Shown: piece after piece, positions 2,909 to 26,574 of the stretch | Layout of the letters: each line of letters opens with the position of its first letter | Position numbering within the stretch: position 1 is the first letter of the stretch | Assembly (NCBI GenBank): GCA_030789695.1 | Contig: CM061134.1 | Coordinates: forward strand, 57,729,334-57,793,333 | Length of the DNA stretch: 64,000 nucleotides | Direction of reading: 5' to 3' | DNA from: Scilla litardierei | Lineage: Eukaryota > Streptophyta > Magnoliopsida > Asparagales > Asparagaceae | Notes under the pieces: model-generated | Seen by the model: only the letters and a program-made list of their open reading frames with translations | Databases searched by the model: none | What the model was told of the DNA's origin: nothing | Position numbers and translations under genes: made by a program

Positions 2909-4034
2909 ATGGATCACCAAGGTGACCTGCCCGGGTGTCAAACATGTGACGCGGCCGCGGCGACATTCATTATTATCATCATACATTGCATACTAAACCT
3001 AGAGGGTACGTCAAACCATATACCCAGAGAGCCATCAGCTATGCGTGAGCTTCATAGGAAATCCCACATGCGTATAATTCTTGTTGGGGGGGGAAATAGT
3101 TGTTTACACTATAAGAATGCGGAGCCATGCGTTTATGAATCTGGCAGGATTAATGAGACAAAGGAATTTTCTGAAAGACAGTATACATGTGATCGTAGAG
3201 AAACAGTTGGCCATGTTTCTACATATCGTAGGGCACAAGTCAAAGAACAGAGTCATGCAAGTTGATTTTATACGCTCCGGGTCAACAGTTAGCCGATACT
3301 TTAACCAGGTAATGTAAGCAATTTGTGCCATGCAGGATATGTACATGAAGCAAGCTCCAAATGAGACCCCTCCTGAGATAGTAAATAATCCTAACTTGTA
3401 TCCTTTTTTCAAGGTACGTAAGCGTGTTTTGGTGACAGGTAGTAGGTAGTCTTTATTGAGTAATGTTGATGTAAACATTTGATTTATTGATGACGATTTA
3501 GGATTGCATTTGGCTCATTGATGGGACACATATCAGTGCCATGCTTCCAGCAAATCTCTTACCCCGGTTTAGAGGACGTAAGTGGTGACACAAAATGTTC
3601 TTGCAGATGCAACGCCAAATAAAAGGTTCACGTACGTAATGGTCGGGTGGGAAGGTTCAACAAATGATTTCACGGTCCTTAAAGATGCATTGTCATTACA
3701 CCCAATGGTCTTCGAGTGTATGATGGTAAGAGGCAGCCTTTAACCAACAATATAAGTCGACATATTTATTAAGTCTTGGGGTTATAATATTGTTTTACGT
3801 TTATGTTTTTAGGTAAAAATTACCTATGCGATGCTGGATATACTACCATCCCAGGGTTCATATCTCCATACAAGGGCGTTAGCTATCAACTGAAGGACCA
3901 TACTGATCTAGTTCCTCGAAATCACTAAGAGCTCTTCAACCTACGTCACTCATCTTTACGAACCTAGATTGAGTTTAATTTCTGAATCCTAAAGAACAAG
4001 TTTAAGATATTGACGTGCAAGCCCCACTATCCCT
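2909..4034 (+). pseudogene. PIF/Harbinger transposase, N-terminal and catalytic part (broken)
   Basis: The translated pieces match plant HARBI1-like transposases (DDE_Tnp_4). ATG 2909 opens one frame; a run of eight G near 3085-3092 shifts it to the frame reading EKQLAMFLHIVGHKSKNRV and SGSTVSRYFNQ. An in-frame TAA follows at 3315, then PEIVNNPNLYPFFK. A GT-AG intron runs 3414-3501. The next exon starts DCIWLIDGTHI, with the first catalytic Asp; a one-base shift near 3584 separates it from TQNVLADATPNKRFTYV and GWEGSTNDFTVLKDAL, with the second Asp. A second intron runs about 3726-3812, then DAGYTTIPGFISPYKGV. The third acidic residue (IE) is near 3968 among stop codons. The coding exon is cut at 4034 by the Sirevirus and resumes at 15664. 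Inactive. Confidence 0.85.
4030..4034. other. Target-site duplication of the Sirevirus (left)
   Basis: TCCCT here is repeated exactly at 15664-15668, directly outside the two LTR ends. Removing one copy and the element rejoins the transposase frame. Confidence 0.95.
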
Positions 4035-4772
4035 TGTAATGCCCTACCAGCTACTGCACAAGTACTAGAGGGGGGGTGAATAGTACTTTAAAATAATAAG
4101 GCGTATAATTCCAAATTAAATTGCAAACAACCACCAAATCAATTTGCGGAAGCTTAAATTGATTGACAACAATGAAATAAACAAAGCTAACAAACGATGT
4201 TAATGGGTTCGGATCCACCCAAGTCTCCCCGACTTGTTCCCGGTGATCCTACGTCCCAACCACCCGGATCCCCTCCGGATACTTGAGTTAGAAACCCTAA
4301 CTCAAGATTTCCACTATGAATATCTTGTGAAAAACCTTCACAAGATCAAATCATACATGCAATGGCAAAGTGAATCCCACAACCCGGGATCACAAACTTC
4401 TCTCACAACCGAGAGAGCCAATAAGCAATATAAAGAGTTTAAATGAAATAAATACTCTTACCACAAAATCCTATACCTTGAGTTTTTCTTACCCAATAGG
4501 TGGAATGAAGGATTTGAGGAAGATGAAGTCACCAAGCCCTAGCACCAAGGAAATGAGCAGCAATGGGTGCCTAGGGAAGAGTTGGAGACTTGGATCAAGC
4601 AATAGCTTGAAGAGCTCACCAAGAACAAGCTTCTCTCTAGATCTAGAAATGAGAGAGAATGGCTTTCTTGTGAGGAAGAGAGCTTTAGATTTGAGGGAGA
4701 ATGGCTATCTCTTTAGGGCTCAATGAATCTCTTAATGGCAGCTCTATTGAAGATAGAAATGACCTAGGTTCG

Positions 4773-4780
4773 TATTTATA
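4773..4780 (-). promoter_or_regulatory. TATA box of the 3' LTR
   Basis: TATAAATA on the minus strand lies about 80 bp downstream of the palindrome array and upstream of the LTR's TG...CA end. This is where a U3 core promoter is expected. The same box is at 14750-14757 in the 5' LTR, where it would drive the genomic RNA. Transcription would start near 4745 and 14720 by usual spacing (inference). Confidence 0.65.
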
Positions 4781-4858
4781 GGAACCCAAAAACATAAGTT
4801 AGGTCAATCTCCAACGGAAAGAAATCTGGGAGAATTAGTCGGTCAAAGAACAATCACT

Positions 4859-5261
4859 GACCGACTAGTTCATCAACTAGTCGGTCAGTCACAAAGCATG
4901 GACCGACTAAGAGCAGATCAGAGAAGAGATAGAATTTCAGACCTAGAAAACTAGTCTGAAGGCAAGTTGACTTAGTCGGTCCAAGAACAAAAGTTGACCG
5001 ACTAGATTGTCAACTAGTCGGTCATCAAACGTTCTTAGACCGACTAACGGAAAACAGTAGCTTAGGAGAAATTTGGCATGTACAGTAAATCACAACTAGT
5101 CGGTCAAAGAAGTATCACTGACCGACTAGTTCACAAACTAGTCGGTCGGTGAGTCAACGTAGACCGACTAACTGTAAACAGTAAAGAACAAAGATTTAAC
5201 TGACTGAAACTAGTCGGTCCAAGAACAGTGGCCGACCGACTAGATCTCCATCTAGTCGGTC
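4859..5261. repeat. Palindromic dyad array in 3' LTR (four units)
   Basis: Dyads GACCGACTAG-spacer-CTAGTCGGTC at 4859-4886, 4996-5023, 5120-5147 and 5234-5261, spaced 137, 124 and 114 bp. Inverted half-sites lie between them. The array is upstream of the TATA box in transcription direction, so it is in the right place for an enhancer. An identical array is at 14836-15238 in the 5' LTR. Confidence 0.9.
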
Positions 5262-5686
5262 AGTACTTGTTCTTGTACCAACTAACATGCACAACAAGGT
5301 CCGAATCGAAGCGCGACGCTTCGAGGAAATTAGAGTGAACTTGTGCAAGAATCCTAGAGCTACGAAATGAGCGAAATGAAGATAGAAACGTAAGATATAC
5401 TCAAGGCTTAACATTCTATCAATCGAAACTAAAAGACTATAAATAAAACCTTAATAAACGGTCTTTGAGAGCTTCGATTGAATCTTCATTATTTCCAAAG
5501 CGTTGCATGAGCTTCAACGAAGCTTTAGGCTTGAATACGAGCTTTTGGAAGTGTTGAGATGTCGCTTTGAATATTCTCGTGAAATTGGCGACGATCTCCA
5601 ATACTGCGCTCACAAATTGTTAGTTCATGAATTATTTATGTTTGCTCATCATCCAAAACCAAATCCGGGGAGTCCAATATTCAACA

Positions 5687-6101
5687 TTCTCCCCCTTTTT
5701 GGTGATGACAAACCAACATAAATAATAATCAAAGATAATAATTCAAATGTAAAATACTTACTCCCCCTGCATTGATGACACGTTAATTCCAAAATGAATA
5801 TAAATGAATTGTATCAAGCAGACGAGTAAGATAAAGTGGTCGATGATGAACATATATATACATAGAGACAACATGAGTACATCCAAAAGATATCACATCG
5901 AATATAAGAGATACATCATATCAAGTGCTACATATCATCAAAAAGAAATACATCATCATCAACATATCATACAATCCAACACCGACAATCAGAAAGCACA
6001 AAAGCAATACAACAAGGCAACTCTCAACCCCATCCTAACCCAAAACTCTCTCACTAGAATACATCATCCAAAGTGTATATGGAGAGTCCTCGGAACAACG
6101 A
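5687..6101 (-). other. Polypurine tract and non-coding 3' end of Sirevirus interior
   Basis: Read on the minus strand, the run AAAAAGGGGGAGA (5689-5701) directly precedes the 3' LTR and is the expected plus-strand primer of reverse transcription. The rest, between the third ORF stop and this tract, is AT-rich with no convincing coding content. Confidence 0.85.
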
Positions 6102-7805
6102 TCACGAGGAGGAGGCAGGATCTGCAGCGTCCGTGGGTCCAGTCGACGGAGTGGACTCAGGATCTGCAGGGAGAAGAGGTGTCTCAACAGATGGAATCGT
6201 CGGGGCAGGAGTCGAGATCTCAGCAACAGGCTCAACAGCAACAGGAGTCTCGACAGAAGCAGCAGCAGCAGATACATGAGCAGGCTCGGAAACTGGATCA
6301 GCAGCAGATGGCTCTGGAACACCGGAAGAGGTGGCAACTCCAGGAGCAGAAGTGGAAGTACCAGCAGCAGCAGAAGTGCCCTTGGGGGCACGAGTCGAAG
6401 CACGACAGATCTCCTCAACGTCCTCCTCATCCATCTCATCCATCTCCTCTCCCTCAGACACGGAAGGAGGAAGCTCAACACCCATCTGACGTGCCATACG
6501 GCAGACCACCTCCTCGGTACGAGCCAAGCGGGACTCGTGACGAAGAAGTATCCGGACGACGTCATCAAGGGTGGCAACGGGAGAAGCAGAGGCAGTGGCA
6601 GAGGCAGGGACAGACGCTGAAGGAGTCGTCCTCTGAACGTGACGAAGCGCCGCAAGAGATTTCTTGACGGCCGTCGCATTCAGCGGAGGACCGAGGGGAC
6701 GCTCATCGTCACGAGGCAATGTGACACGAAAGTGACGAAACACGAGGGTCAACATGCAAGGAAAAGGAATATGAGCCGATTTATTGGACTTTCGAATACA
6801 CTCGAAAGAATCAATCTTGTCGAGTATAATTTGAGCCCAATTAATCGAGCTCCCCATGAAGATCGCATAGATAAGCTTCAAAAATGGCTGGGATGGTAAA
6901 GATGAGGAGCCGTACTTGGGAAGCAAGCACGACTTCAGAATCAAATTTAGGACCCAAGCATTTGGCTTAAAAGATTTAGAGGGCACGCCAATCATAGCAG
7001 GAGGAATCTGATGGAAAATCTCTGATAGGATGGTCTGGTCAAGAGAGGAAATATCATCTACCGAGATATCAGAAGGAAGAAGGCCAGACGAAGAGATACC
7101 CAGAATCTCTCCTAAGATTTCCGCAGTGAGGACTATAGGAGTCCCCAAAACGGTCGTCTCAATAGAGTGGGTCTGATAGAACTGACCCCGGATCCTATTG
7201 GCATAGAAAAGCTTCACTAATCTAGGATAGGGGCGAGGATTCGCCTTCGGGTCAAATCGAAGGTAATCGAGAAGACCCGACGACGACAGAAGATCAGCTA
7301 GCCCTATGAAGTCGCTGAACTGGACGAAATGCTCCAGAAGCAGCGGACAATGTTCGATACGATTATATGCCGCAAGACACAAAGGGTCATCGCGACATAA
7401 GGAAATATCGACACCGCCCACCGGCATCGGAGCCTTTCCCTTAGGCTTTCGAGAAGACGTACGAGGGTGGGTGCTAGACTCGGGATGAATAGGAGGAGAG
7501 GGTTCCCTATGAGTCTCGGTCTCGGGATTATACTCCGTATCGGAATCGGTAGGAGTATGGAACGAAGAAGGAGAGGCAAGAGATTTGGCCTTTGGCTTAG
7601 GTTTGGGTTTGGGTTTGGGTTTGGGTTGACCTCTAGGCTTAGCGGTCGTCGTCCTCTTCTTCTTGAGAGGAGGCGAAGACGACGAAGGATGGGTGGTCTT
7701 GGCTCTACGCTTCGTAGGGGTTGGATGCTCGGGATCCGAAGAGGTTGGATCAACGGTCATCGGAGAGGGGTTAGAGGAAGGGATCGGAATGCGTGTTCTT
7801 GCCAT
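6102..7805 (-). CDS. Third ORF of the Sirevirus (ORF3), plant transposon-type protein
   Basis: 567 residues from MARTRIPIPSS. This Met is chosen over one 14 codons upstream because it follows the leader and starts a basic, ordered-looking tail. Residues 1-125 are Ser/Pro-rich with basic clusters (TKRRAK near 31, KKKR near 48) and a (PK)n run near 61-72, suggesting nuclear import. Residues about 130-370 form the only globular-looking part, with PRPYPRLVKLFYANRI and VLGTPIVLTAEILGEILGI. This resembles the putative plant transposon protein domain also seen in Athila ORF1-like proteins (my recognition). Residues 413-442 look like a coiled coil. The C-terminus is Ala/Ser/Thr/Pro-rich and acidic. 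There is no membrane segment or signal peptide, so an envelope role is not supported. It lies in the position of the extra ORF of Sireviruses. Function unknown. Confidence 0.8.
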   Translation of the reverse strand: MARTRIPIPSSNPSPMTVDPTSSDPEHPTPTKRRAKTTHPSSSSPPLKKKRTTTAKPRGQPKPKPKPKPKPKAKSLASPSSFHTPTDSDTEYNPETETHREPSPPIHPESSTHPRTSSRKPKGKAPMPVGGVDISLCRDDPLCLAAYNRIEHCPLLLEHFVQFSDFIGLADLLSSSGLLDYLRFDPKANPRPYPRLVKLFYANRIRGQFYQTHSIETTVLGTPIVLTAEILGEILGISSSGLLPSDISVDDISSLDQTILSEIFHQIPPAMIGVPSKSFKPNAWVLNLILKSCLLPKYGSSSLPSQPFLKLIYAIFMGSSINWAQIILDKIDSFECIRKSNKSAHIPFPCMLTLVFRHFRVTLPRDDERPLGPPLNATAVKKSLAALRHVQRTTPSASVPASATASASPVATLDDVVRILLRHESRLARTEEVVCRMARQMGVELPPSVSEGEEMDEMDEEDVEEICRASTRAPKGTSAAAGTSTSAPGVATSSGVPEPSAADPVSEPAHVSAAAASVETPVAVEPVAEISTPAPTIPSVETPLLPADPESTPSTGPTDAADPASSS

Positions 7806-8147
7806 AGTCGAAGCAAGACACGAGATCAAATCAACGAATCCTAGCACAACCCTAGAAATCCGAAACCCTAGAGGAAGAAATTTAGAACCCTAGGCAGAGA
7901 AACCTAACCCTAGAGCTGAAAACGAAACCCTAGATAGGAGAGGGAGGAGGTAGGTTTACCCTAGGAGGAAGAACGACGGCCGGCGACGGCGGAGATGATC
8001 GGAAAGAGGCCGGAAGTCGATCGGAAGGGGAAGGGTCGGGGTTTTGAGCGGAGTGAACTGAGTTTTCGATCGATTAGAATGGAAATCGATCGACTAAACT
8101 GAGTTTAAGTCGGTCGATTTCCCAAATGACCAAACAGCCCCTGGCAC
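7806..8147 (-). promoter_or_regulatory. Telo-box-rich leader upstream of ORF3
   Basis: On the plus strand the segment has AAACCCTAG at about 7862 and 7926 and further ACCCTAG and ACCCTAA variants between 7850 and 7960. These are telo boxes, a plant element common in promoters and 5' leaders of housekeeping genes (established knowledge). A CT-rich, then GC-rich stretch (about 7960-8045) with GCCGGCGACGGCGG follows, as in plant 5' UTRs. No TATA box is seen. It looks like a leader taken from a cellular gene (inference). Confidence 0.55.
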
Positions 8148-8337
8148 AACTAGTCGGTCACAGTTCAAGCACTGACCGACTAGTTCACAAACTAGTCGGT
8201 CGGTAAATGAGCTTGAACCGACTAGGTGTAAACAGTGGCTGAATCCAAGAAGACTGACAAGATTTAGTCGGTCTGCGTTCGATTACTGACCGACTAGATC
8301 TCAATCTAGTCGGTCGGTCACTGAACATGAACCGACT
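8148..8337 (-). promoter_or_regulatory. LTR-derived dyad array copied in front of ORF3
   Basis: Two dyads (8174-8201 and 8288-8315, 114 bp apart) with their half-sites align in order with LTR positions about 5093-5290 in the same orientation. The shared block TGTAAACAGT lies between them in both. The copy is diverged from the LTRs, so it predates this insertion and is not a fresh rearrangement. Its place between pol and ORF3 suggests an internal promoter or enhancer (inference). Confidence 0.7.
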
Positions 8338-8581
8338 AAAGAGTCAAAAACTTGAAAATTAAGTTCTCTCCATAATACGCTTGGACGAAAAATCTCAAAA
8401 CTCTCAATAGACATCTAAACTACCCCATTAAACATCGAAAAACAGAAATTTGACGATTACGCACAAATCGAACGAAAAATTAAGATAACACTTAAAATTC
8501 TCGAAAAATCCAATAATTCTAGCATGAATGAGATATTGTCAAGAATAATAGCATGCAAAATTATTGAATGAAACATGAATC
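8338..8581 (-). other. Spacer between pol and the ORF3 promoter region
   Basis: AT-rich sequence following the pol stop. Nothing recognisable was seen in it. Confidence 0.5.
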
Positions 8582-11500
8582 CTATATTTCGGATTCACCC
8601 ATAATCCCCAATTCTCGACGCAACCGCACAAAGGAGTCCTCCTTTAGGGGTTTCGTGAAAATATCGGCGATTTGCTTTTGGGTTTCAACGTACACTAGAA
8701 TGATGTCCTTTTTAGCAACATGGTCATCTAAAAAGTGGTGGCGGACATCTATGTGTTTCGAACGGGAATGATGTACCGGGTTCTTGGAAAGACATATTGC
8801 ACTTTGGTTGTCAACCATGATAGGGCAAGTATCACAATTTATACCAAAGTCTTTAAGTGTGTGTCTCATCCAAAGAACTTGAGCACACGCGGCACCGGCG
8901 GCAATATATTCCGCCTCGGTGGTTGAAAGTGATACGGAATTTTGCTTCTTGGAAAACCAAGAGACAAGAGAATTTCCTATAAAATGGCAAGTGCCACTAG
9001 TACTTTTCCTGTCGGATTTGCATCCTGCATAATCGGCATCACTATATGAGATTAACTCATATGTGCTAGATCTCGGATAAAGTAATCCAAAATCTAAAGT
9101 GTAACTTAGATAGCGAAAAATACGCTTTACCGCTACTAAGTGAGACTCCTTAGGTTGAGACTGATAACGAGCACATATACATACGGCAAACATAATATCG
9201 GGCCTACTTGCGGTAAGATAAAGCAAACTACCAATCATACCTCGATATAAACGAATGTCTACATCCTTACCGCCCGTATCCTTGTCAAGATGCGTAGTCG
9301 TGCTCATTGGAGTCTTTTTCCCGGAGGCATTCTCCATTCCAAATCGCTTTAGCAACTCCACCGTGTACTTCGTTTGGTGGATGAAGATTGCATCGTTCAT
9401 TTGGCGAATTTGGAGTCCTAAGAAATATTTGAGTTCGCCCATGTGGCTCATCTCAAATTGTTCCTTCATAACATTAGAAAACTCTTCGCAAAGAGTGAAG
9501 TTAGTAGCACCGAAAATGATATCATCAACATAAATTTGTACTAATAAAATATCATTATTCGCATGCTTAACAAAAAGAGTTGAATCGGCTTCGCCCATTT
9601 TAAAATTCAAATCCAAAAGAAAATTCTTTAGGCGATCATACCAAGCTCGAGGAGCTTGTCTCAAACCATAAAGAGCTTTCTTTAGTTTAAAAACGTGATT
9701 TGGAAATTTTTCATTTATGAAGCCCGGAGGTTGAGAAACGTAAACTTCCTCAACGACATCTCCGTTTAAAAAAGCACTTTTAACATCCATTTGAAATAAT
9801 TTAAAATTCTTATGGCATGCAAAAGACAAAAGTAATCTAATTGATTCTAATCTAGCTACCGGAGCGAAGGATTCTTCGAAATCAATACCTTCCTCTTGTC
9901 GATAGCCTTGAGCTACTAACCGAGCTTTGTTCCGGACGACGACTTGGTTTTCGTCGGTTTTGTTCTTGAAAATCCACTTTGTCCCTATGACGGTGTGGTT
10001 CTTCGAAGGCAATGGAACAAGCTCCCACACTTCATTCCTCTCGAATTGAATGAGCTCCTCCTCCATGGCAAGTATCCAAGCACTATCTTCGCATGCTTCA
10101 ACTATATTCTTTGGCTCTATCGATGAGGCAAAGGCACAATTGGCGAAGTGGTGAACTTGTGATCTTGTCTTGACACTATCTTGAATATTGCCAATTACTT
10201 GCTCATGGGGATGGTCGCGAATGACATGAAGTCGCTTGGGAATACCTTGATCACTTGGAACATTCTCAACAACTTCATTAGTCGGGTTAGTCTCAATAGA
10301 ATCAATAGACTTAGAATTATCAAATGAATCACATAAAACATCCATAGAATCATTATCATTTGAAATTCTAGTTGGAACAAATCCTTCATTAAATGAGACA
10401 TGAAGCGACTCCTCGATCGTCGAGGTTCGTTTGTTGAATATCCGGTAGGCTTTGCTACGCGAAGAATATCCCACAAAAATCCCCTCATCGGATCTCGGAT
10501 CGAATTTGTCCAAACTACCATATGTGTTCTTAATAAAACATTTCGAACCAAAAACACGAAAATGTTTAACTTGAGGCAACCTACCAAACAACAATTCATA
10601 ACAAGTTTGTTTAGTGCCGGGCCTCAAAAGTATTCTATTAAACACATAGCAAGCGGTGTGTACCGCTTCCGCCCAAAATTGATGGCCAAGTTGGCTATCA
10701 TCAAGCATAGTGCGAGCACACTCCACTAGCGTCCTATTCTTTCTCTCAACTACACCATTTTGAGGCGGTGCACGAGGGAAAGAGAAGGTGTGAGTAATAC
10801 CAACTTCATCACAAAATGTCTCAAAAGACTCATTCTCAAATTCACCTCCATGATCACTACGAATAGTGACAATGGTGTTTCCTAAGAGATTTTGTACTTT
10901 CTTAACAAAAATTGTGAAGTTTTCAAAAGCTTCATTTTTATTGCACAAGAAAAATACCCAAGTAAATCTTGAATAGTCATCTACGATGACAAGTCCATAC
11001 CTTGCATTTCCTAAGGAAGCTACTCTAGTTGGCCCAAATAAATCTAGATGTAATAGCTCTAGTGGCCGTTTTGTAGAGATGCTTTTCTTAGGTTTAAATG
11101 AAGATTTAGGAAGCTTGCCGCGTTGACAACAATCACAAAAACTTTTCTTTTCAAAAACAAGCTTCGGAAAACCTTTAATAGAATTCAATTTTGAAAGCTT
11201 ATATAGTGTTCCAAAGTTCACATGTCCAAAGCGTCGATGCCATAAGTGTTGTTCACTTGTGTTGGCAACGAGACATTGTTCATATGACTTAGGAAGATCC
11301 AAAATATAAATGTCTTTACGACGAGTTCCGGAAAATAATAATTTTTCATTATCCTTTCTTAAAATATGACACAATCCTTTCGCAAAGCTAACTTTGTAAC
11401 CTTTGTCACAAAGTTGACTTATTGAAATAAGATTATGATTTAAACCACTAACAAGATACACATCACTAATTAATGGTTTAGAAGGGTTACCGACATTACC

Positions 11501-11689
11501 AACACCTATGATGGTTCCGCTCTCGTTGCCTCCAAATACGACGCGGTTTCCATTCACAATGGGAACCACTCCGGAGAGCAATCGAGCGTCACCCGTCATG
11601 TGTTTGGAGCACCCGCTATCGAGTATCCAATTCCCTTTGGAGCTAAATTTAAATTTGTTGCTCCTTTTCTTTTTCTTTTCCTTGAGTAC
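8582..11689 (-). CDS. pol: Sirevirus Pol: protease, integrase, reverse transcriptase, RNase H
   Basis: One uninterrupted frame of 1035 codons from the last in-frame stop; an internal Met is at 11599. Domains in order: aspartic protease motif [11 protein letters not shown] (residues 23-33), just before that Met; integrase zinc site (HLWHRRFGH ... CDCC); integrase core with [17 protein letters not shown] and the Glu of [12 protein letters not shown]; reverse transcriptase with YVDDIIFGA; RNase H with [18 protein letters not shown] and DNQSAI. It ends GIMGESEI. The order protease-integrase-RT-RNase H is that of Ty1/Copia. It has no start of its own before the protease, so it must be made as a fusion with Gag. 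All catalytic residues I can identify are present. The frame is the same as gag. Confidence 0.93.
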
Positions 11690-11749
11690 CTAAAGATAGA
11701 TAAGTTTCATATCATGGTACCCAAGGTCATTGGGTCCAAGGGATTAGAC
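11690..11749 (-). other. Gag/Pol junction: 60-nt GT-AG segment holding two in-frame stops
   Basis: Gag ends in TAA at 11746-11744 and a second in-frame TAG stands at 11692-11690; the frame is otherwise open through pol. The segment begins AAG|GTCTAA and ends TCTATCTTTAG|G, matching plant splice sites, and is exactly 60 nt. Splicing it out would remove both stops and keep gag and pol in frame. The alternative is stop-codon readthrough, proposed for some Sireviruses, but here it would need two events. No strong branch-point match was seen, and 60 nt is near the lower size limit for plant introns. Confidence 0.5.
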
Positions 11750-13984
11750 CTTTGGAAGCCAAGTCCAAGTGGACTTAGACTTCCCCACATAATTCTTACT
11801 ATGCACAACATCCGAAAAATAAGCATTCATATATATTTGTTTTTCGTCCATGCTTGTGTCCTTTGGGCTCCAAATCGTGAAAACTTTGGGAGCCATCATC
11901 CTATTGGGTGCATGCATGCGACGTTGATTTCTACGTGATGCATGTTGTGGATAGGCATACGGGACATGATGGAATGGTGCACGACGAGAATTATTCATAT
12001 GATGAGGTGGGTGTACATATGCATGTGTGGGAACACGTGCGTGAGGGTGTCTCACTTGGTGTGCACGTGCCCGAGAATGTGTTGCATAAAAATCATCATA
12101 AGTGTGAGATGGTGGAGTAGGACGTGTGTTCCTACGTGGCATGGAATTGGTGTACATATAAGCATGCCCCTTCTTTGGAGGTCCACCCAATGTGGGTTTC
12201 TTTCCGAAAGAGGGTGTGGACGAGGTGGAAGCACCATTGGTAGATGAACTACCAATAGAGTGTTTGCTCCCACTCGTTGAGGCTTCGGAAGTTGGCCTAA
12301 CAAAGGTAGTGACCGACTTGGAAGAATTTCCCATCATATACCCCAAGCCAATGTGGTGCTTGGCCGGAAGTAAATCTTTTAGGATATTATCCAAATGACC
12401 TTTACCCTTGTTGAATTTGTTGATTCGGCCCAATGTGTCCTCATATTTCTCTTTGAGAGAACGCAAGGAAGTATCCAAAGTGGATATTTGCGAAGTGAGC
12501 ACATAAACACGAGATTTAAGATTCTCGTTCTCAATACTCAAAGTCGAGTTTTGAGAAGTTAAATCCGCTATCTCATGTTCTTCCGCATCCTCAATGCTAA
12601 CATGTTCAAGTTTAGATTTGAGATTTACTATCTCTTTTCTTAACTCTTCAACAACGGTGTCGTTGTTGGTGATGATAGTCTTAGGCGATGTTTGAATGCT
12701 AGCTAGGTCATCTTTTACCTTAGTATATCTATTTACTAACTTAGTATATTTTGACCAAAGTTGAGTGTTAGCATCCCTAAGATCATCCATCGTTACCTCA
12801 TCGCTTTCTTCATCACTATCATCGGAAGAGGAGGATCCTTGATCGTGCTCCTCTCTTGCCATGAAACACATGTGTGCTTGCTCCACGTGCTCATCGTCCG
12901 ACTCTCCGCTTGAGGAATCCTCGGAGTCGGTGAAGGTAGCTCCGACAAGTCCCTTCTTGTTTCCTTTCGTGTACTTCTTGGACTTGTCATACTTTGGCGC
13001 CTTCCACTTCTCCTTTTGCTTGTTTTGAGGACAATCCGCTTTGATGTGTCCTGGCTTATTGCATTTAAAGCACAAAGGTGGAGAGGCATTAGTAGATGTA
13101 AACTTAGATTTGTGTTTGAAGTTACCCTTTCGGAAGAAGCGATTGAACTTCTTTGCCATGAGTGCAATGGATTCCATGTCCATTTCTTCTTCCGAGTTCT
13201 CATCATCGGTAGAGGTGGATGAAGCCGCCTTGAATGCAATCGCCTTTTTCTTAGGCGCATCTAGGTTCAAATATGACTTCATCTTTTCTTGTAGCTTCAC
13301 CTTGCTATCTTTGCGTACCTCATATGACATCAAAGTACCCATTAGTTGAACTACGGTATATTTGTCCATGTCATTACCTTCCTCGATGGCGAAGGTACGT
13401 TTTTCCCAAGAAGAGGGAAGTCCTTCAATAAGCTTTAAGCACTTCTCCTTTTGAGTGTAGATCTTGCCGAGGGCCTCTAACTCGTTTATTATGTCAACGA
13501 AACGAGCGTAATATTCTTTCATCTTCTCGCCCTGTTGCATATGAAACATTTCGTAATCTTTGGTTACGACTACGAGTTTAGAGTCTCTTACCCTACTCGT
13601 CCCTTCGTGTAGAATGAGGAGGGAGTTCCAAATTTGATATGCACTCTTACATGTGCATATCTTATTGAAATCCTCGGGCTCCAATGCACATTGCAAGGCG
13701 TTCATTGCCTTGGCATTGCTTACCTCCGCGGCGACCTCCGCGGTAGTCCATTTCTCAAAATCTTCTTCTTCGGGTTCAATATACTCCTTCATTGTAGTTC
13801 TCCATAAAGATGCACTTCGGAGGAAGGTTTCCATCCGACACTTCCAGTACCCGTAGTTGGTACCGTTGAAGAATGGAGGCCTCGTAGAGGAATGTCCTTC
13901 CATCACGGAAGATGCTCCTTCACGGTTCCTGAAGGTGTCATAGTTGGAAGGTGGACGCACGGTCTTGTTGTCGTTGGCAGACAT
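11744..13984 (-). CDS. gag: Sirevirus Gag
   Basis: 746 residues. The N-terminal half is a Copia-type gag region (UBN2-like), with PPFFNGTNYGYWKCRMETFL near 36-55 and AYQIWNSLLILHEGT near 115. A single CCHC zinc knuckle, CFKCNKPGHIKADC, is at 305-318. Basic and acidic low-complexity tracts follow, then a coiled-coil-like stretch (about 385-535) and a His-rich tail. The start lies only about 15 bases from the primer-binding site. Gag forms the cytoplasmic particle that packages element RNA. It is intact, which fits the recent insertion. The large C-terminal extension is usual for Sireviruses. Confidence 0.92.
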   Translation of the reverse strand: MSANDNKTVRPPSNYDTFRNREGASSVMEGHSSTRPPFFNGTNYGYWKCRMETFLRSASLWRTTMKEYIEPEEEDFEKWTTAEVAAEVSNAKAMNALQCALEPEDFNKICTCKSAYQIWNSLLILHEGTSRVRDSKLVVVTKDYEMFHMQQGEKMKEYYARFVDIINELEALGKIYTQKEKCLKLIEGLPSSWEKRTFAIEEGNDMDKYTVVQLMGTLMSYEVRKDSKVKLQEKMKSYLNLDAPKKKAIAFKAASSTSTDDENSEEEMDMESIALMAKKFNRFFRKGNFKHKSKFTSTNASPPLCFKCNKPGHIKADCPQNKQKEKWKAPKYDKSKKYTKGNKKGLVGATFTDSEDSSSGESDDEHVEQAHMCFMAREEHDQGSSSSDDSDEESDEVTMDDLRDANTQLWSKYTKLVNRYTKVKDDLASIQTSPKTIITNNDTVVEELRKEIVNLKSKLEHVSIEDAEEHEIADLTSQNSTLSIENENLKSRVYVLTSQISTLDTSLRSLKEKYEDTLGRINKFNKGKGHLDNILKDLLPAKHHIGLGYMMGNSSKSVTTFVRPTSEASTSGSKHSIGSSSTNGASTSSTPSFGKKPTLGGPPKKGHAYMYTNSMPRRNTRPTPPSHTYDDFYATHSRARAHQVRHPHARVPTHAYVHPPHHMNNSRRAPFHHVPYAYPQHASRRNQRRMHAPNRMMAPKVFTIWSPKDTSMDEKQIYMNAYFSDVVHSKNYVGKSKSTWTWLPKV

Positions 13985-14011: not shown

Positions 14012-15663
14012 TGTAATGCCCTACCAGCTACTGCACAAGTACTAGAGGGGGGGTGAATAGTACTTTAAAATAATAAGGCGTATAATTCCAAATTAAATTG
14101 CAAACAACCACCAAATCAATTTGCGGAAGCTTAAATTGATTGACAACAATGAAATAAACAAAGCTAACAAACGATGTTAATGGGTTCGGATCCACCCAAG
14201 TCTCCCCGACTTGTTCCCGGTGATCCTACGTCCCAACCACCCGGATCCCCTCCGGATACTTGAGTTAGAAACCCTAACTCAAGATTTCCACTATGAATAT
14301 CTTGTGAAAAACCTTCACAAGATCAAATCATACATGCAATGGCAAAGTGAATCCCACAACCCGGGATCACAAACTTCTCTCACAACCGAGAGAGCCAATA
14401 AGCAATATAAAGAGTTTAAATGAAATAAATACTCTTACCACAAAATCCTATACCTTGAGTTTTTCTTACCCAATAGGTGGAATGAAGGATTTGAGGAAGA
14501 TGAAGTCACCAAGCCCTAGCACCAAGGAAATGAGCAGCAATGGGTGCCTAGGGAAGAGTTGGAGACTTGGATCAAGCAATAGCTTGAAGAGCTCACCAAG
14601 AACAAGCTTCTCTCTAGATCTAGAAATGAGAGAGAATGGCTTTCTTGTGAGGAAGAGAGCTTTAGATTTGAGGGAGAATGGCTATCTCTTTAGGGCTCAA
14701 TGAATCTCTTAATGGCAGCTCTATTGAAGATAGAAATGACCTAGGTTCGTATTTATAGGAACCCAAAAACATAAGTTAGGTCAATCTCCAACGGAAAGAA
14801 ATCTGGGAGAATTAGTCGGTCAAAGAACAATCACTGACCGACTAGTTCATCAACTAGTCGGTCAGTCACAAAGCATGGACCGACTAAGAGCAGATCAGAG
14901 AAGAGATAGAATTTCAGACCTAGAAAACTAGTCTGAAGGCAAGTTGACTTAGTCGGTCCAAGAACAAAAGTTGACCGACTAGATTGTCAACTAGTCGGTC
15001 ATCAAACGTTCTTAGACCGACTAACGGAAAACAGTAGCTTAGGAGAAATTTGGCATGTACAGTAAATCACAACTAGTCGGTCAAAGAAGCATCACTGACC
15101 GACTAGTTCACAAACTAGTCGGTCGGTGAGTCAACGTAGACCGACTAACTGTAAACAGTAAAGAACAAAGATTTAACTGACTGAAACTAGTCGGTCCAAG
15201 AACAGTGGCCGACCGACTAGATCTCCATCTAGTCGGTCAGTACTTGTTCTTGTACCAACTAACATGCACAACAAGGTCCGAATCGAAGCGCGACGCTTCG
15301 AGGAAATTAGAGTGAACTTGTGCAAGAATCCTAGAGCTACGAAATGAGCGAAATGAAGATAGAAACGTAAGATATACTCAAGGCTTAACATTCTATCAAT
15401 CGAAACTAAAAGACTATAAATAAAACCTTAATAAACGGTCTTTGAGAGCTTCGATTGAATCTTCATTATTTCCAAAGCGTTGCATGAGCTTCAACGAAGC
15501 TTTAGGCTTGAATACGAGCTTTTGGAAGTGTTGAGATGTCGCTTTGAATATTCTCGTGAAATTGGCGACGATCTCCAATACTGCGCTCACAAATTGTTAG
15601 TTCATGAATTATTTATGTTTGCTCATCATCCAAAACCAAATCCGGGGAGTCCAATATTCAACA
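14012..15663 (-). repeat. Sirevirus 5' LTR
   Basis: 1652 bp, offset 9977 from the 3' LTR. It includes the dyad array at 14836-15238 and a TATA box at 14750-14757. It is the promoter of the genomic RNA. Confidence 0.95.
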
Positions 15664-15952
15664 TCCCTTTCCATGTCAGGTCGATACCGTCCTAGCATGC
15701 ACTGTGTTGCATAATTATATTCAAGTAGCAAATCCACATGACCTGCAACTTATTGAGGATGTTGATGTGATTGAGGGGGATGGAGATGTTCATGATGACT
15801 CGATTATGGATATGTCCCAACAGGTGGCCATACGTGAACAACCCCAACAGAGGGACCAATGGAAACTTCGCAGGAACCAAATAGCTTGGGATATGTGGGT
15901 CGACTATTGTAACATACATAATCATGGGAACACGCATGAACATGGTCTATGA
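15664..15952 (+). pseudogene. PIF/Harbinger transposase, C-terminal part
   Basis: After the TCCCT duplication the transposase frame resumes. It reads VLACTVLHNYIQVANPHD, the conserved C-terminal motif of plant Harbinger transposases (LACCVLHNFI-like), then an acidic stretch and a Trp/Asn-rich tail, ending at TGA 15950. Together with 2909-4034 it forms one broken gene. This part has no stop of its own, so the Sirevirus entered an exon that was still open locally. Confidence 0.85.
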
Positions 15953-16121
15953 CATTTGGGTTTGGTTTTATGTAGTAGAAATCATTATTACATTGCCACT
16001 TTTTAAAGCTGTATTGCGACTACTTTGTCATTTTTATTGATGCATGAGTTATATTCGGTTGCAAGTATTTTGGATATCTTGATTTATTGATTTGCAATAT
16101 TAAGTCATTCTTTTTGTAGGC

Positions 16122-17654
16122 ATGGCTAGGGCATCTCAACCAGGTCAAGGGAGTGATCCGATGCTCCCATTGCATGGCCCACCCTTTGTGAATCAATGGG
16201 TAGACGATGCATGTCGTAATGAGACTTCTCCCCGTGGACCGATGGCCCGTAGGATGATAGATTTCCATTATCAATCGCAGGGCAACTATGGTGGAGACAC
16301 AAGTATGCCTTTTGCTTAACACCCCCATATAGCATGCACATGCACATGGGGAGTCCCCCTGGATTTATGCAAATGCTACAAGGGGGCGGGATGGGACAGG
16401 TGGGAGGGAGCTACCATGGGGGTGTGATTCCACAGGTGGGAGGGAGCTACCAAGGGCTGGTAATAGGAGGTATGGTTGCCTCATTATATTAGCCCGCCTA
16501 ACCATAGTGCATTCAACAGGACGTCATCCCAAAGCGGGAATGACCCGATTGATGGTAGTAATAATTCAAGAAAGTCCAGTAGACGTGACAAGTCGGGGGA
16601 AGCATCGGTTTCCAGCCCCCGGAAAAAAATGAAGCAGCCAACACAAAAGGGGCCGGCGAACAAAATATGGCCTTGGGAGCATGATTTGGAGGTCATCCCT
16701 TTCCTTGTGGAGCAGGCAAGGCAAGGAATGAAATCTGATAAGACTTTCAAAGGGCACGCCTTCTATGCTGCTGCTGCCCGTATTAATGAGAAATTCGGGA
16801 TGGCCTACAGTAGCCAAAATGTTTGCAATCATATGAAAGGATTGCGTACGAGGCTAGACGATGCGAATACGTGCCTCAATTTAAGTAGAGTAGGGTGGTC
16901 GGAAGAGAGGCAGATGATAACAATGGATCCTGAAACGTATGCCACCTGGGCCTCGGTAATAATTTCAAATTTTAAGCAAAAATACATACTACTCAATGAA
17001 ATTTTCTTTTTTTCCGCATTAATATCCCTTGGTGTATACGTGCAGGCACACCCTGGAACTATATTAATAAACCAATCACGTGGCTTGAGGATCTTCGCTT
17101 GATTATAGGGGATGACGCAGTAAGGGGAGATTTTAGGAAGGCTGTGTTTCAACAATTTGGCGGCCCATACACGAAATGCGACAGAGATCAGGCAACTCCT
17201 TCGTCACTTGATTATGAATCGCTGGACACTGATGTCCCAAATTACACACCACAGGCTACCTCTCCAGGTTCTAGTCCTGCGAGAACTAGCCATGTAGACC
17301 CTCGAGCATTGGGGAAAAAGAAAAAGCGTAGGCAACGTGGAGCAGCTGCCAACGAAGGATACAATGTATTTGTTGATAAACTAACGGAGGTCACCGATGC
17401 CTTATGGATCACGCATGCCCCCATGGAATGTGGAGATAAGTAAGAGTGTGTATGCACACACAGAGTATCCTCCCGAAATATTTGATAAATTGTATGAAAT
17501 GCTGAGTGACGTAGAGAAGGATGGGAAGAAGTATCTGGGTATACCGGAGGCGGCAAGGACTAGATACATCAAGAGGAAAATGGATGAATTTGAGCGTGGT
17601 AATGAGGTCGAGGAAGTTGAAGGCGATGAAGGTCGATGGGGGAACTTAAGGTGA
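16122..17654 (+). pseudogene. Myb/SANT-like ORF of the Harbinger element
   Basis: A second gene downstream of the transposase in the same orientation, as in PIF/Harbinger elements whose Myb-like partner helps bring the transposase to DNA. The first segment begins MARASQPGQGSDPM (16122). The main one (about 16476-16965) has a basic stretch and the trihelix-like region WPWEHDLEVIPFLVEQARQG ... YSSQNVCNHMKGLRTRL. An intron from about 16965 to 17046 precedes WNYINKPITWLEDLRLIIGD. The last part holds a KKKKRRQR cluster near 17319 and KSVYAHTEYPPEIFDKLYEM, ending at TGA 17652. Frame breaks near 17050 and 17440, plus stops between 16319 and 16476, suggest it is broken unless extra introns exist. Family recognition is good; exon limits are approximate. 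Confidence 0.72.
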
Positions 17655-17844
17655 TTTTTGTAATATAAGATCTGGTGGATTATTAATAAAGTATATTATC
17701 AAACTTGTTATATGTCTAATACACTTGCAACCGTATGGGTAGATGTTGATGTTTTACGATTGTATATTATTTTATATTAGCGTCATGAAAATTTCCTGTG
17801 CATGCTTGCTTCTTTTTTTAAAGGCAATGAGGTGCCAATGTTTT

Positions 17845-18490
17845 TATTACACTGTGGCCATAAACTTTGTGTATCTGTTGCATAACTGTGTGAATGTCAA
17901 TACGGCTGCATGCTTGGAGATGTTGGCATTGAGATGAATTGGGGTTTATGTCATAATGTCCATGCCATTTGTTTATCTGTTGAATGTCTGGGTGCTAAGC
18001 AATATTGGTGAAAACTTGGTTTTTATGGCATGGAATGATTTGGGATTTATTTCAGACTGTCCATCATATTTGTGTATATGTTGCATTCTTCATGGAAATA
18101 AGGTGAAAGATTGGAATTTTTGGCTATGTTGTCACTTGGATTTTATTTCAGCATGTCCTTACAATTTGTGTAAATGTTGCATGCCTGTGGGCATTGCAAT
18201 CTTGGTGAAAGCTTGGATTTTTTTTCAGAATGTCCATATGTTTTGTGAATCTGTTGCATGCATGTGTGCCTTGCAAAGTTGGTGGAAGATTGGAATTTTT
18301 TGCTGTTCTTTTGACTGGGGTTTTATTTCAGTCTGTCCATGCCAATTCTGTATTTGTTGCATGCCTGAGTTCACGGCAATATTGATGTATGCTTCTAATT
18401 TTTTTCAAAGAGATACGTTGGGTTTGATTTCAAAATGTCCATGCCATATGTGTAGCTGTGGCATGCATGGGTGCATTGCAATATAGATGA
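17845..18490 (+). repeat. Array 1 of ~105-bp repeats
   Basis: Six to seven diverged units, each containing TCCATGCCATTTGTGTATCT, GTTGCATGC and a GGATTTATTTCAG block, spaced 80-110 bp. The apparent open frames across it are Cys/Ile-rich and repeat with the units, so they are not taken as genes. Confidence 0.85.
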
Positions 18491-18504
18491 ATTCTTTGAT
18501 TTTT

Positions 18505-19500
18505 TTCTCCCATTAGCCCAATGATGAAAATCATGAAATCGTTGAAAGAAACTCTAAATTTTCCAATTAAATGGAAGGTTGGCAGGATGGTTCCTCTATT
18601 GTATATCGGTTTCAAACGGAAATAAAACCCAAGTTATGTGTCTTGGGTAGTTAAGTATTGAACAAACGCCAGCAACCTAGTTGGGTAAAGGATAAATATA
18701 TTTTTGATGGCTATAAAATTCTAAGTTTTCATTATATTTGCAATGTGTATCTGTTGCAAGCCTGGGTGCATGTAAAGGTTGGAGAATACATACAGGCCTC
18801 AGGATTCCCAAACAATACTCCACGTAAGCAAACTTTCCCAATTTCACTTTCAAGAAACAGATCATCCCTTTGGAAAGTTGGGCGAGAATGTCCATGCCAT
18901 TTGTGTTTCTGTCTCATGTCTGTTTGCATGTCAATATTGTGGCTTGCTGGGATGTTTTGGCTGTGAGAGAAATTGGGATTTTTTGGCAGAATGTCCAGGC
19001 CATTTCTGTGTCTGTGTCATGCCTGGTTCCTTGTCAATACTGCTGCTTGTGTGGATTTTTTTTGCTATGTGAGTACTTGGGATTTATTTTAGAATGTACA
19101 TGCCATTTTTGTATCTGTTGCATGCATGGGCCGCACGGCACTATTGCTGCATTCTTGTATTTTATGGCAATGTTATAACTTAGGTTATATTTCAGTCTGT
19201 CCAGGCCATTTGATGCTTTAATGGATTTTCTCTCTCTAAAAGCCCAATGATGAATAACCTGAAATCGTTGGAATAAACAATTAATTTCCCAATTAATTGG
19301 ATGGCTTGCCGGATGGTTCATTTATGGTATATCAGTTTCGTTCAGAAAAAACACAAGTTATATTCTTTTCTTGGGTAGATAGGGAAGGAACAGAAAATGA
19401 TACATATATATTCCTGAGGGCTATAAGTTTTTTTCATTCTAATTGTTATGCGCCTGTTTTTGTATTTGCATATGGGTTTTGACTTGTCAAAATACGTTGA
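18505..19500 (+). repeat. Two ~210-bp AGCCCAATGATG blocks flanking array 2
   Basis: Blocks at about 18505-18720 and 19225-19450 share AGCCCAATGATGAA, GAAATCGTTG, TTGGCAGGATGGTTC-like text and a later GGGTAG stretch. Between them (18885-19215) lie about four more units of the 105-bp repeat. The blocks are related in the same orientation to those at 2316-2890. Confidence 0.75.
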
Positions 19501-19654
19501 TGATTATTGAAAAATACCGGATACGTTGACATCATGGGGTATAACATTTTCATAGGACGCCTTGAAATCCCCCTTGTCACATCATGTATACATTTCTTTT
19601 CTCTTACCTTACACACCATTAATTGTGATTCTGTTTATGCTTGTCCAGGTACAA

Positions 19655-20137
19655 ATGAGTGTAGGCTCCAACACTTCTATTCGCTCACGCCTTCGGGAAG
19701 CGAACCGTGTTCCTGAGTTGGATATGGATGCTGCAGACTACATGATATGCCACTGTGGTCTGAGGGTACCAAGGAAGACGTCTTGGACACGTTTAAACCC
19801 TGGCAGAAGGTTTTGGAGCTGTCCGTCTCACAAGAATAAATGCGATTTCTTCGAATGGAAGGACCCCCATCATAGTGACTGGTCAACGGTTATTATCCAG
19901 CACTTAATGGAAGCGAATGAAAGAGGAGCAATAGGTGAAAGCCCTGCGAGCTCACCGAATGAGATGAGGTGGGTTGAGATTGACGGTCGGTTGGCTACAG
20001 TTGTGGGCCAATTGGAGATAAATAAGGATGAAATGGATAGCATGCTATCTGAGTACAACTCGCTTAAGTTTGTTTTGTATTCTATCCTAGGTCTAGGTTT
20101 TATTATTTTTCTGATGTTGTATAACAATCACTACTGA
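19655..20137 (+). CDS. GRF zinc-finger protein with C-terminal membrane anchor
   Basis: 160 residues from MSVGSNTSIRS. The upstream hydrophobic in-frame stretch ends in a likely splice acceptor (TTGTCCAG at about 19648), so this Met is preferred. A GRF-type zinc finger spans about 31-70: ICHCGLRVPRKTSWTRLNPG, then RRFWSCP and CDFFEWKD, with Cys 32, 34, 56 and 63 as likely zinc ligands. Residues 104-137 could form a short coiled coil. Residues about 139-157 are a strongly hydrophobic single span, leaving four to five residues after it, as in tail-anchored proteins. GRF fingers are thought to bind nucleic acid. The gene lies inside the Harbinger element between repeat arrays, downstream of the Myb-like ORF and in the same direction. 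It is the only open coding sequence of that element. Confidence 0.7.
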   Translation: MSVGSNTSIRSRLREANRVPELDMDAADYMICHCGLRVPRKTSWTRLNPGRRFWSCPSHKNKCDFFEWKDPHHSDWSTVIIQHLMEANERGAIGESPASSPNEMRWVEIDGRLATVVGQLEINKDEMDSMLSEYNSLKFVLYSILGLGFIIFLMLYNNHY

Positions 20138-20174
20138 TTTGGATTGTATGTTTGTTGTCGGTGCGAACGTCTTT

Positions 20175-20830
20175 TGGTGTTGCTACTTGTGGGTTTATTT
20201 CAGATTGTATTTTTGGCTATGATAGTTCTTGGGATTTATTTCATATTGTACAAGCCATGTTTGTATCTGTTGCATGCCTTGTTGCATGTCAATATTTTTG
20301 CTTGCATGGTTTTTTTGGCTATGGAGTACTTGGGATTTATTTCAGAATGTACATGCCATATTTTGTATCTGTTGCATGCTGGTTGCTTGTCAAAATTTCT
20401 GCTTGCGGGCATTTTTTTGGCTTTGCGAGTACTTGGGATTTATTTCATAATGTACATGCCATTTTTTGTATCTGTTGCATGCCTGGTTTCTTGTCAATAT
20501 TGATGCTTGCGTGGATTTTTTGGCTATGCGAGATCTTGGGATTTATTTCAGAATGTCAAGTCCATTTGTGTTTCTGTCTCATGCCTATTTGCTTGTCACT
20601 ATTGTTGCTTGCTGGGATGTTTTGACTATGAGAGATATTGGGATTTTTTTGCAGCCTGTCCAGGCCATTTTTTGTGTCTGTGTTATGCCAGGTTGCTTGT
20701 CAATACTGCTGCTTCGGTGGATTTTTTGTCTATTTTTGTAGTTGGAATTTATTTCAGAATGTACATGCCTGGGACACATGGCATTATTGATGCATTCTTG
20801 GATTTTATGGCAATCTGATAACTTAGGTTT
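20175..20830 (+). repeat. Array 3 of ~105-bp repeats
   Basis: Six to seven units beginning around 20240, 20347, 20454, 20555, 20655 and 20758. They are more alike than those of array 1. Because the unit is close to a multiple of three bases, long frames stay open in several frames; these read as repeats of themselves and are not genes. Confidence 0.85.
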
Positions 20831-21851: not shown

Positions 21852-22133
21852 TATTAAGATGCTGACCTTTTCCTCAGTTTGTTGTAGACTTTTTCCACAG
21901 TTTGTTGCAAAATATTTCCTCGCCGTATCTTCTCTCCTAGTCCGTAGGAACTTGTTGTAATCAGTTAAGATATCTTGTTGTAATCAGTTGAGATAGTTTA
22001 GGTTAGTTAAGATATCTTGTTGTAATCAGTTGAGTTAGTTTAGGTAATTAGTTGTCAGACTCCTTGTATAAATGTATGACCGAAACTATCAGTAAATTCA
22101 ACCTTCATTCCATATTTACTTCCTTTCTTTATA
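21852..22133 (+). repeat. 5' LTR of the small Copia
   Basis: 282 bp. Contains three copies of ATCTTGTTGTAATCAGTT-like text (about 21950-22040) and TATAAAT near 22069 as a possible TATA box. Confidence 0.9.
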
Positions 22134-22165
22134 TGGTATCAGATTAGCCTCAGAATCCATAAACC

Positions 22166-22965
22166 ATGTCTTCTGATAATTCTCCGGCCATCACTTCCGC
22201 AACCCAAATCCTTTTCACCGCTTCCGGTGTCGCCGCGGCCAATTTACAATTTTCGGCCCTAGCGGTTCGCCTCGACCGGACGAATTATTCCCTATAGAAG
22301 GGCACCGTGCGCTCGGCTCTAGAGGCTTACGAACTTAAGGGCTTCCTCGTCACCGGTAGCACCCTTGTCCCCCTACTGCCACCAGCTGAAGGAGCATCCG
22401 CCAGAGCTCCGAACCCGGCGTTCGCAACTTGGAAATGCAAGGACCGCCTCGTCCTCTTATGGCTCCACTCGACCCTCTCCACACCGATGCTCGGCCACGT
22501 TGCCCATGCTGCCACCATGGCAGAGGTCTGGTCTCTGCTGGGACAAACCTTCCAGTCCCAATCTCGCGCTCGGCAGATGCACCTGAAGCAACAACTTCAC
22601 ACCTCTCCAAAGCCGAGATGTCGATTCTTGAGTATGTTGAAAAGAAGCGCTCCATCTCTGACGCACTGGCGGAGTGTTTAACTGTCTTTCCCAACGACGA
22701 TCTCATCACCTACATCCTGTTCGGTCTTGGGTCAGAATACGCCGCCTTCAAGACCGCCGTGAGTATTCGACTGGAGCCGGTGTCCTCCAATGAACTCCTT
22801 GTCTTGCTTCTCCAGGAGGAACATCGGATCTTCGATTCGTGTCTTGACTCCGCCGTGCCATCCGCCCACGTCACTCACCGCCGTTTCTCTGCTCGACAGC
22901 CACCTCAGGACCTCCCGGCTGCTCCTGAGCGCACACGGACAGTCTGCCAGATTTGGACAAAGTAG
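22166..22965 (+). pseudogene. gag: gag of the small Copia (broken)
   Basis: Starts MSSDNSPAITSATQILFTAS. A TAG stands at 22295, where a sense codon is expected before KGTVRSALEAYELKGF. A frameshift near 22605 moves the reading to KAEMSILEYVEKKRSISDAL and the rest of the UBN2-type gag. The zinc knuckle is damaged: CQIWTK is followed by TAG at 22963, then GHDRQNCHQ, so the second Cys has become Trp. Confidence 0.85.
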
Positions 22966-23040
22966 GGCCATGACAGACAGAATTGCCATCAGCGTCTCAA
23001 TCTCTCAGCCTTCCCTGCCACAAACCGCCATGCTATCGAT

Positions 23041-26000: not shown

Positions 26001-26233
26001 CTATTCTTCTTTGCGACAATCTTAATGCGATCTTCCTCACGGTAAATCCTGTCTTCCATCAGCGGTCCAAACACATCAAGATTGACTACCATTTTGTCCG
26101 AGAACAGGTTCAAGCAGGGGAGCTGATTATTCGACATGTCAAATCCGTCGATCAAATTGCCGACATCTTCACCAAAGCCATTGGCATCTCTCGTTTTCAA
26201 AATTTGACGACCAAACTTCTCGTTCATACCTGA
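23041..26233 (+). pseudogene. pol: pol of the small Copia (broken)
   Basis: Protease motif WVVDSGTTNHVTA is near 23113. The integrase has a zinc-site region CWHHRLVHPHE ... CSACQLGK, a stop at 23746 inside the core, and frameshifts near 23847 and in the G run near 23893. After these come HTPEQNGADERRNR with the catalytic Glu. Another break near 24810 precedes the RT segment [19 protein letters not shown], with TAG at 25102, and a shift near 25280 precedes MFLVYVDDLIITGS. The rest to 26233 is open and covers the RT end and RNase H (STESEYRAFAFAAAEL, LLCDNLNAI). Domain order is Ty1/Copia. Inactive. Confidence 0.88.
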
Positions 26234-26252
26234 CCGTGAGCTTGCGGGAGGG

Positions 26253-26534: not shown

Positions 26535-26574
26535 GGTTAACCCCAAAAGGAAGACAATTCTGCTTCAGGAGAGC

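Follow-up and report, generated by a model that had tools for sequence, protein, structure and literature searches.

An ancient copy of LTR palindromic modules and a candidate internal promoter upstream of ORF3 in a Scilla litardierei Sirevirus

In a young Sirevirus of Scilla litardierei, the third open reading frame (ORF3) is preceded by an old, core-conserved copy of two palindromic modules of the element's own LTR, and a second family of the same genome carries a different palindrome in the matching places. We propose that ORF3 has an internal promoter, that the ancient enhancer-like LTR copy lies upstream of it, and that this copy is read by a factor shared with the LTR; we put the probability of this reading at about 0.6. 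A preliminary description of this DNA had proposed an ORF3 promoter built from an LTR fragment and a cellular-type leader; its observation was right and its interpretation is plausible and partly supported, but its claim to novelty was too high.

The element is a young Sirevirus with a third open reading frame

The window, meaning the whole 64,000-nt stretch analyzed here (C5:57729334-57793333 of the 3.68-Gb genome), has a G+C content of 41.6%. By its sequence features, the minus-strand element at about 15663-4035 is classified as a young Sirevirus. Its 3′ LTR (4035..5687; 1653 nt, with RM modules at 4835-5285) and its 5′ LTR (14012..15664, where 15664 is the BLAST end and the TG stands at about 15663) differ at 1 of 1653 positions, and a 5-bp target duplication, AGGGA, is present at both outer flanks. 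Between the LTRs, also on the minus strand, are a gag ORF (11744..13984; Retrotran_gag_2, zinc knuckle), a pol ORF (8582..11599; integrase [rve], RVT_2), and ORF3 (6102..7805; 567 amino acids, start context ACTATGG), which carries Pfam domain PF20167 (Transposase_32), described as a "putative plant transposon protein." Retrotran_gag_2, rve, and RVT_2 together give the copia-type gag and pol of a Sirevirus (Ty1/copia). Three further Sirevirus features were found: a polypurine tract (PPT), AGGGGGAG, beginning 10 bp before the 3′ LTR and followed by AA and then TG; a polyC integrase signal, CCCCCCC, near the LTR 3′ end; and a TATA sequence near mid-LTR after the boxes (TATAAA at 4780, about 55 nt past the last module). 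The PPT is present in two copies, at 5689 and 5761, and the Sirevirus average given in the PPT passages of Bousios et al. (PMC2829016) is four. gag and pol are separated by two in-frame stop codons (minus strand, 11746 and 11692) in this very young copy.

A genome search with ORF3 scored at least 77 copies at 99% identity or more, which indicates recent amplification of the family; transcripts may therefore be findable.

A two-module unit of the LTR is repeated between pol and ORF3

The core motif GACCGACTAG (at most 1 mismatch) occurs at 62 places in the window against 1.56 expected, and all but three of these fall within the element's LTRs, an LTR-like stretch at 1-1766, and positions 8150-8339. 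The cores are organized in 76-nt modules (10 core, 14 spacer, 10 core, 8 center, 10 core, 14 spacer, 10 core), so that each module holds four 10-nt cores of alternating orientation. Four modules are found in the LTR, six in the second LTR family (1-1766), and two plus a decayed dyad in the pol-ORF3 linker. Internal module INT_1 (8264..8339) is the counterpart of LTR module M1 (5210-5285), INT_2 (8150..8225) that of M2 (5096-5171), and the 38 nt between them (8226..8263; GTCAGT...ACTGTTTACA) that of LTR positions 5172-5209, all on the minus strand. The complete LTR counterpart, M1-linker-M2, thus spans 5096..5285 on the same strand.

Aligned without gaps, the 190-nt unit at 8339-8150 is colinear with LTR positions 5285-5096 and identical at 136 of 190 positions, whereas the next best offset in the same LTR gives 92 matches. 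Against the second LTR family the unit matches at 137 of 190 positions (best other offset, 93). When only the non-core positions were shuffled, a mean of 104.4 matches remained, and none of 20,000 shuffles reached 136. This result bears out the earlier claim, for which alignment of 8148-8337 to the LTR had been suggested, that two palindromic dyads between pol and ORF3 align with the LTR in order and orientation, linker included (136/190 versus 104 expected). GTCAGT...ACTGTTTACA is kept at the same places in the internal and LTR linkers. Aligned to the M1-M2 linker of either LTR family, the internal 38-nt linker scores above shuffles (P = 0.004 and 0.017), and the M2-M3 linker of the second family aligns to it equally well (P = 0.015). 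The spacers of INT_1 match those of M1 at 18 of 36 positions but those of M2 and M4 at 20 of 36, so assignment module by module is weak; it is the unit as a whole that decides for LTR modules 1 and 2. We therefore interpret 8339-8150 as a copy of LTR modules 1-2, the distal part of an enhancer-like array (RM cluster). Colinear homology that extends beyond the cores is counted in favor of an internal promoter.

Downstream of INT_2, a decayed third inner dyad (8088..8115, minus strand), missed in the preliminary description, retains 16 of 20 core letters; matches outside the module neighborhoods reach at most 13. We rejected the idea that the leader contains one more intact 76-nt module, as a full-length profile found none; only the decayed inner dyad is present.

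These sequences have the properties of RM boxes: they are palindromic, carry the CGG-CCG signature, and are numerous both in the LTR and ahead of the ENV position. The CpG observed/expected ratio is 0.8 to 1.5 in most module-bearing 300-nt bins and 0.41 in 4600-4899, which holds the last LTR module. G+C is 0.40 to 0.43 in the LTR arrays and reaches 0.51 only at 7900-8199.

The internal copy is old and conserved at its cores

At non-core positions the internal unit differs from either LTR family by 44.5%, whereas the two LTR families differ from each other by 13.6%. If rates are similar, the internal copy would predate the split of the two LTR families. Over the whole block the difference from the LTR is 28%, against 1/1653 between the LTRs, as had been proposed when the copy was called diverged from the near-identical LTRs. 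Changes between unit and LTR are concentrated outside the cores (cores, 5/80; non-core, 49/110; Fisher P = 1.5e-9).

We then examined 30 close copies in the genome, the window's own included. All 30 (30/30) have the pol end, the block, the leader, and ORF3 in one contiguous piece, at 95 to 100% identity over the alignment, the lowest copy (L015) having a 42-nt gap. Variable sites among the 30 copies number 1/80 in the cores and 10/110 in the non-core block (P = 0.027), whereas the difference between cores and all other sites is not significant (P = 0.17); the former comparison is counted in favor of an internal promoter and the latter against it. The close copies are too young to count as independent. 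With conserved cores and a place ahead of ORF3 in all 30 close copies, the block is an old LTR homologue and answers to the earlier description of an inherited part of the element. Core-only conservation (5/80 versus 49/110) and presence in 30/30 copies are counted in favor of the internal promoter.

These data bear on two other explanations. The block could be a passive relic, LTR DNA copied in by template switching and now functionless, as the decay of the third dyad would suggest. Conservation of the cores over a long time speaks against this, as do retention of the block in all 30 close copies, young as these are, and repetition of the arrangement in a second family with its own palindrome (see below); we regard this explanation as very improbable. 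Alternatively, the arrays could be hairpin or silencing signals whose folding in RNA leads to siRNA or methylation in LTR and linker, with no role in an ORF3 promoter. The strand does fold far better than shuffles (z = −7.9 for the block, −8.5 for the LTR unit, and −8.5 for the array of the distant relative L001 described below). However, the hairpin arms show no clear covariation signal (cis pairing, 84 versus 77 permuted; P = 0.08), which leaves the arms unsupported as a conserved feature. Conservation of the short cores alongside drifting arms is what binding sites would show, and the position of the linker copies beside ORF3 is left unexplained. We regard a hairpin or silencing role as very improbable.

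A TATA-less, ATG-free leader precedes ORF3

The candidate TATA-less core promoter and ORF3 5′ leader occupy 7806..8047 on the minus strand. This interval is 63 to 74% C+T by segment, contains no ATG, and carries CTAGGGTTT-type telo-boxes and several acceptor-like AGs. TATAA, TATAAA, and TATATA are all absent from the minus strand at 8600-7806, in agreement with the earlier description of the region as TATA-less, whereas the LTR has TATAAA at 4780; the lack of a TATA box in the internal region is counted against a promoter there. Of the few other core-promoter words tried, CCAAT/ATTGG was found once (8510) and a W-box-like word once (8342).

No other of the 1345 ATG-to-ATG gaps on the minus strand of the window is as long as the ATG-free run from 8328 to 7805 (523 nt). 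Second in length, at 437 nt each, are the gaps of the two LTR leaders, starting 15 nt upstream of the TATA box. A run of at least 522 nt is found in 28 of the 30 close copies, the remaining two having 356 and 48 nt. Compared with dinucleotide shuffles, the run is only mildly unusual (leader alone, P = 0.18; with the block, P = 0.03). Eight full telo-boxes were found in the 64 kb, six of them in Sirevirus leaders, all TAGGGTTT and sense-oriented; two of these six are the same box in both LTRs. The longest ATG-free run in the window and the sense telo-boxes in the leaders are counted in favor of the internal promoter; the mild departure from shuffles, together with upstream ATGs in a second family (see below), is counted against it.

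The segment had been called GC-rich and telo-box-rich. Its G+C enrichment is modest (50% versus 41.6% for the window), and the telo-box excess is strong (ACCCTA, 6 versus 0.10 expected). The label "cellular-type" is weak and not needed, because the element's LTR leaders also have long ATG-free runs, the TAGGGTTT telo-box, and similar features; the ORF3 leader is as similar to the element's genomic leader as to a cellular one. Comparison of the ORF3 leader with the leaders of the LTR and of L001 gave no homology, the only shared words being at most 12 nt long.

The leader also supplies the evidence for the main rival, in which ORF3 would come from genomic RNA spliced in retroviral style, from a donor site within the LTR leader to an acceptor site within the CTAG|G-rich ORF3 leader, and the palindromes would act otherwise or not at all. 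Scored with general consensus frequencies, the donor GTG|GTAAGA at 14438 in the LTR leader ranks in the top 0.93% of GTs, and 7806-8147 contains five acceptors above the 95th percentile, against a mean of 1.00 per scored window (0.5% of which reach five). These five sites favor splicing as much as they favor a promoter and are counted against the latter. Splicing has been reported for barley Bagy2, which, like the Athila env-like genes and the soybean SIRE1 ENV, has an extra 3′ ORF in sense as the window's element does; for Athila and SIRE1, predicted acceptors and stop-codon suppression, respectively, have been reported. However, acceptor-like AGs arise anyway in pyrimidine-rich leaders, of the 40 best AGs in L001 a single, weak one falls between pol and ORF3, and splicing leaves the conserved, family-matched palindromes unexplained. 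A spliced ORF3 mRNA is a live rival, which we consider unlikely overall.

A second family carries its own palindrome in both linker and LTR

Among 30 PF20167 loci (L037-L066), only L065 has a pol end within 1.5 kb upstream; the other 29 were left out of the linker comparison, and L002-L006, which had no pol or ORF3 match, were excluded. L065, from the same genome, encodes an ORF3 45% identical to that of the window over about 270 residues, with the last 24 matched pol residues upstream. Its pol-ORF3 linker holds 14 CAGTCGACTG boxes (at most 2 mismatches), which are all 14 of the locus, against 0.19 expected. Downstream of ORF3, past an insertion recognized by eye as a LINE, lie three PPT copies and then an LTR with a CAGTCGACTG array upstream of a TATATAAG sequence. 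From this order and the shared box, we infer that the downstream LTR belongs to the same interrupted L065 element.

The boxes of the two families thus differ between families and match within each. At no more than 1 mismatch, the window's family has 7 GACCGACTAG places in the linker and 15 in the 3′ LTR, with no CAGTCGACTG in either; the L065 family has 11 CAGTCGACTG places in the linker and 12 in the LTR pieces, with no GACCGACTAG in either. Matched palindromes within each of two families are counted in favor of the internal promoter, and their presence in one genome makes the idea of a shared regulator directly testable.

Three of five further L065-family members (L070, L072, and L073) carry 11 to 13 boxes at 335 to 677 nt before ORF3, with the pol end upstream; the exception is a single box of L073, at 158 nt. 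These three linkers are counted in favor of the internal promoter. L071 has different DNA in place of the upstream sequence and no box there. Foreign DNA starts about 350 nt upstream of ORF3 in L074 and contains 11 GACCGACTAG places, and one of L074's three CAGTCGACTG-like places, at 335 nt, stands where the array ends in other members. L071 without an array and L074 with a single box at the array's place are counted against the internal promoter. The L074 array is broken by this GACCGACTAG-rich DNA, perhaps a nested LTR of the window's family. The long ATG-free leader is not kept in the older L065 family, since ATGs lie 33, 34, 140, and 255 nt before ORF3 among L065, L070, L072, and L073.

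A third relative, L001, combines a Sirevirus pol (66% identical in the best segment) with a PF20167 ORF3. Four GTCGAC palindromes at 1284-1357 lie between its pol and ORF3 (0.04 expected), within its longest ATG-free run (1202-1503), which precedes ORF3; these palindromes are counted in favor of the internal promoter. L001 is filed under a rumen Eubacterium metagenome-assembled genome yet is plant-type, probably through contamination of a bacterial assembly. The same arrangement, for which the preliminary description had suggested a search in other family members, is present in 30/30 close copies, and relatives with other palindromes show the same layout.

This contaminant contig was the single match in public genome contigs, and no plant relatives were found in public viral contigs. 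A protein search with the window's ORF3 found none, and one with the ORF3 of L001 found 19 proteins; a plasmid search returned four bacterial plasmid matches at <60% identity, two of which carry a reverse transcriptase annotation. The predicted ORF3 structure was poor (pLDDT, 56; pTM, 0.46), and the best fold-search hit had an E value of 0.6. ORF3 relatives have the PF20167 domain and basic N termini in common.

Proposed expression of ORF3 and relation to known elements

Under an internal promoter, the 8339-8150 unit would enhance a TATA-less promoter and so yield a separate ORF3 mRNA, with its start predicted between about 8080 and 7850. This RNA would run through the ATG-free leader into ORF3 and presumably end at the 3′ LTR poly(A) site, and gag-pol would be expressed from genomic RNA driven by the LTR. 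One DNA-binding factor, or one set of factors, may read both the LTR array and the internal array; a shared factor would keep the two matched even though each family has a palindrome of its own.

The 190-nt block contains 10 instances of ACCGAC/GTCGGT, and RM arrays account for 72 of the 88 RCCGAC sites in the window. CCGAC is given as the DRE core in PMC7013043. One might guess from ACCGAC (DRE/CRT core) in the cores at cold or drought induction, for the window's family only. DREB/CBF was rejected as a general factor because CAGTCGACTG of the L065 family lacks this core, which makes it family-specific at most.

A more speculative and quite improbable extension is that the ORF3 protein, or a factor that it recruits, recognizes the palindrome of its own family at both sites, LTR and ORF3 promoter; boxes and protein would then diverge together. 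Such a switch would resemble the VANDAL anti-silencing proteins, which are tied to their own element. Family-matched boxes in CpG-containing noncoding DNA are in its favor, as are the PF20167 domain and basic N termini that ORF3 relatives have in common; four env-less elements with LTR boxes, in Table 3 of Bousios et al. (PMC2829016), are against it.

The arrangement itself belongs to a class known since 2010 and is strengthened here by comparison with relatives. Bousios et al. (PMC2829016) described the same palindromic CGG-CCG boxes, many in Sirevirus LTRs upstream of the TATA box, with extra copies upstream of ENV. In their account boxes occur in 13 elements, with linker extras in the nine that contain ENV (77 of 79 upstream of ENV), and CpG islands lie at the clusters. 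One box consensus is given per element, LTR and linker together. An internal promoter is favored in that account, with none identified, and MASiVEdb repeats the idea. The suggestion of a distinct new mode of expression is not supported, because boxes upstream of ENV and an internal promoter already appear in PMC2829016. What differs from the sections of that paper on the boxes, which give per-element consensus and counts rather than an LTR-linker alignment, is the 76-nt quadripartite module, the 190-nt colinear LTR-linker homology, and core-only conservation. To that class the present analysis adds colinear homology between LTR and linker, conservation confined to the cores, and palindromes that match within a second family of this genome. 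The maize Grande element (Ty3/gypsy) likewise has an extra ORF, gene23, located between pol and its 3′ LTR and transcribed from an internal promoter of its own; as described in the gene23 passages of PMC7264820, gene23 is antisense, whereas the window's ORF3 is in sense and its upstream block is LTR derived. A literature search over titles and abstract starts of open-licence papers found no start-site mapping for a Sirevirus ORF3.

Neighboring elements in the window

The plus-strand sequence at 1-1766, cut by the window start, is a related LTR (79 to 85% identical) with six RM modules. The DNA that follows it is unlike the TGGTATCA-type primer binding site of the window's element. The stretch at 1-1766 is therefore probably from another Sirevirus family, as its 3′ LTR or as a solo LTR. 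The element appears to have inserted into a PIF/Harbinger-like transposon, of which about 3100-4034 and 15664-17102 remain at either side. The left part (about 3100-4034) has a transposase-like reading that we take to be a PIF/Harbinger motif, and the right part includes a Myb/SANT-like ORF (16476-17102). Diverged repeat arrays with a period of about 102 nt occupy 17833-20762. A copia-type element lies at 21852-26537; its SH3_retrovirus and RVT_2 ORFs are flanked by direct repeats of 286 nt (96% identical). Direct repeats at 29382-31967 and 36753-39289, 93 to 94% identical in pieces, surround zinc-knuckle and RVT_1 ORFs, and the region at 29382-39289 is probably another LTR element.
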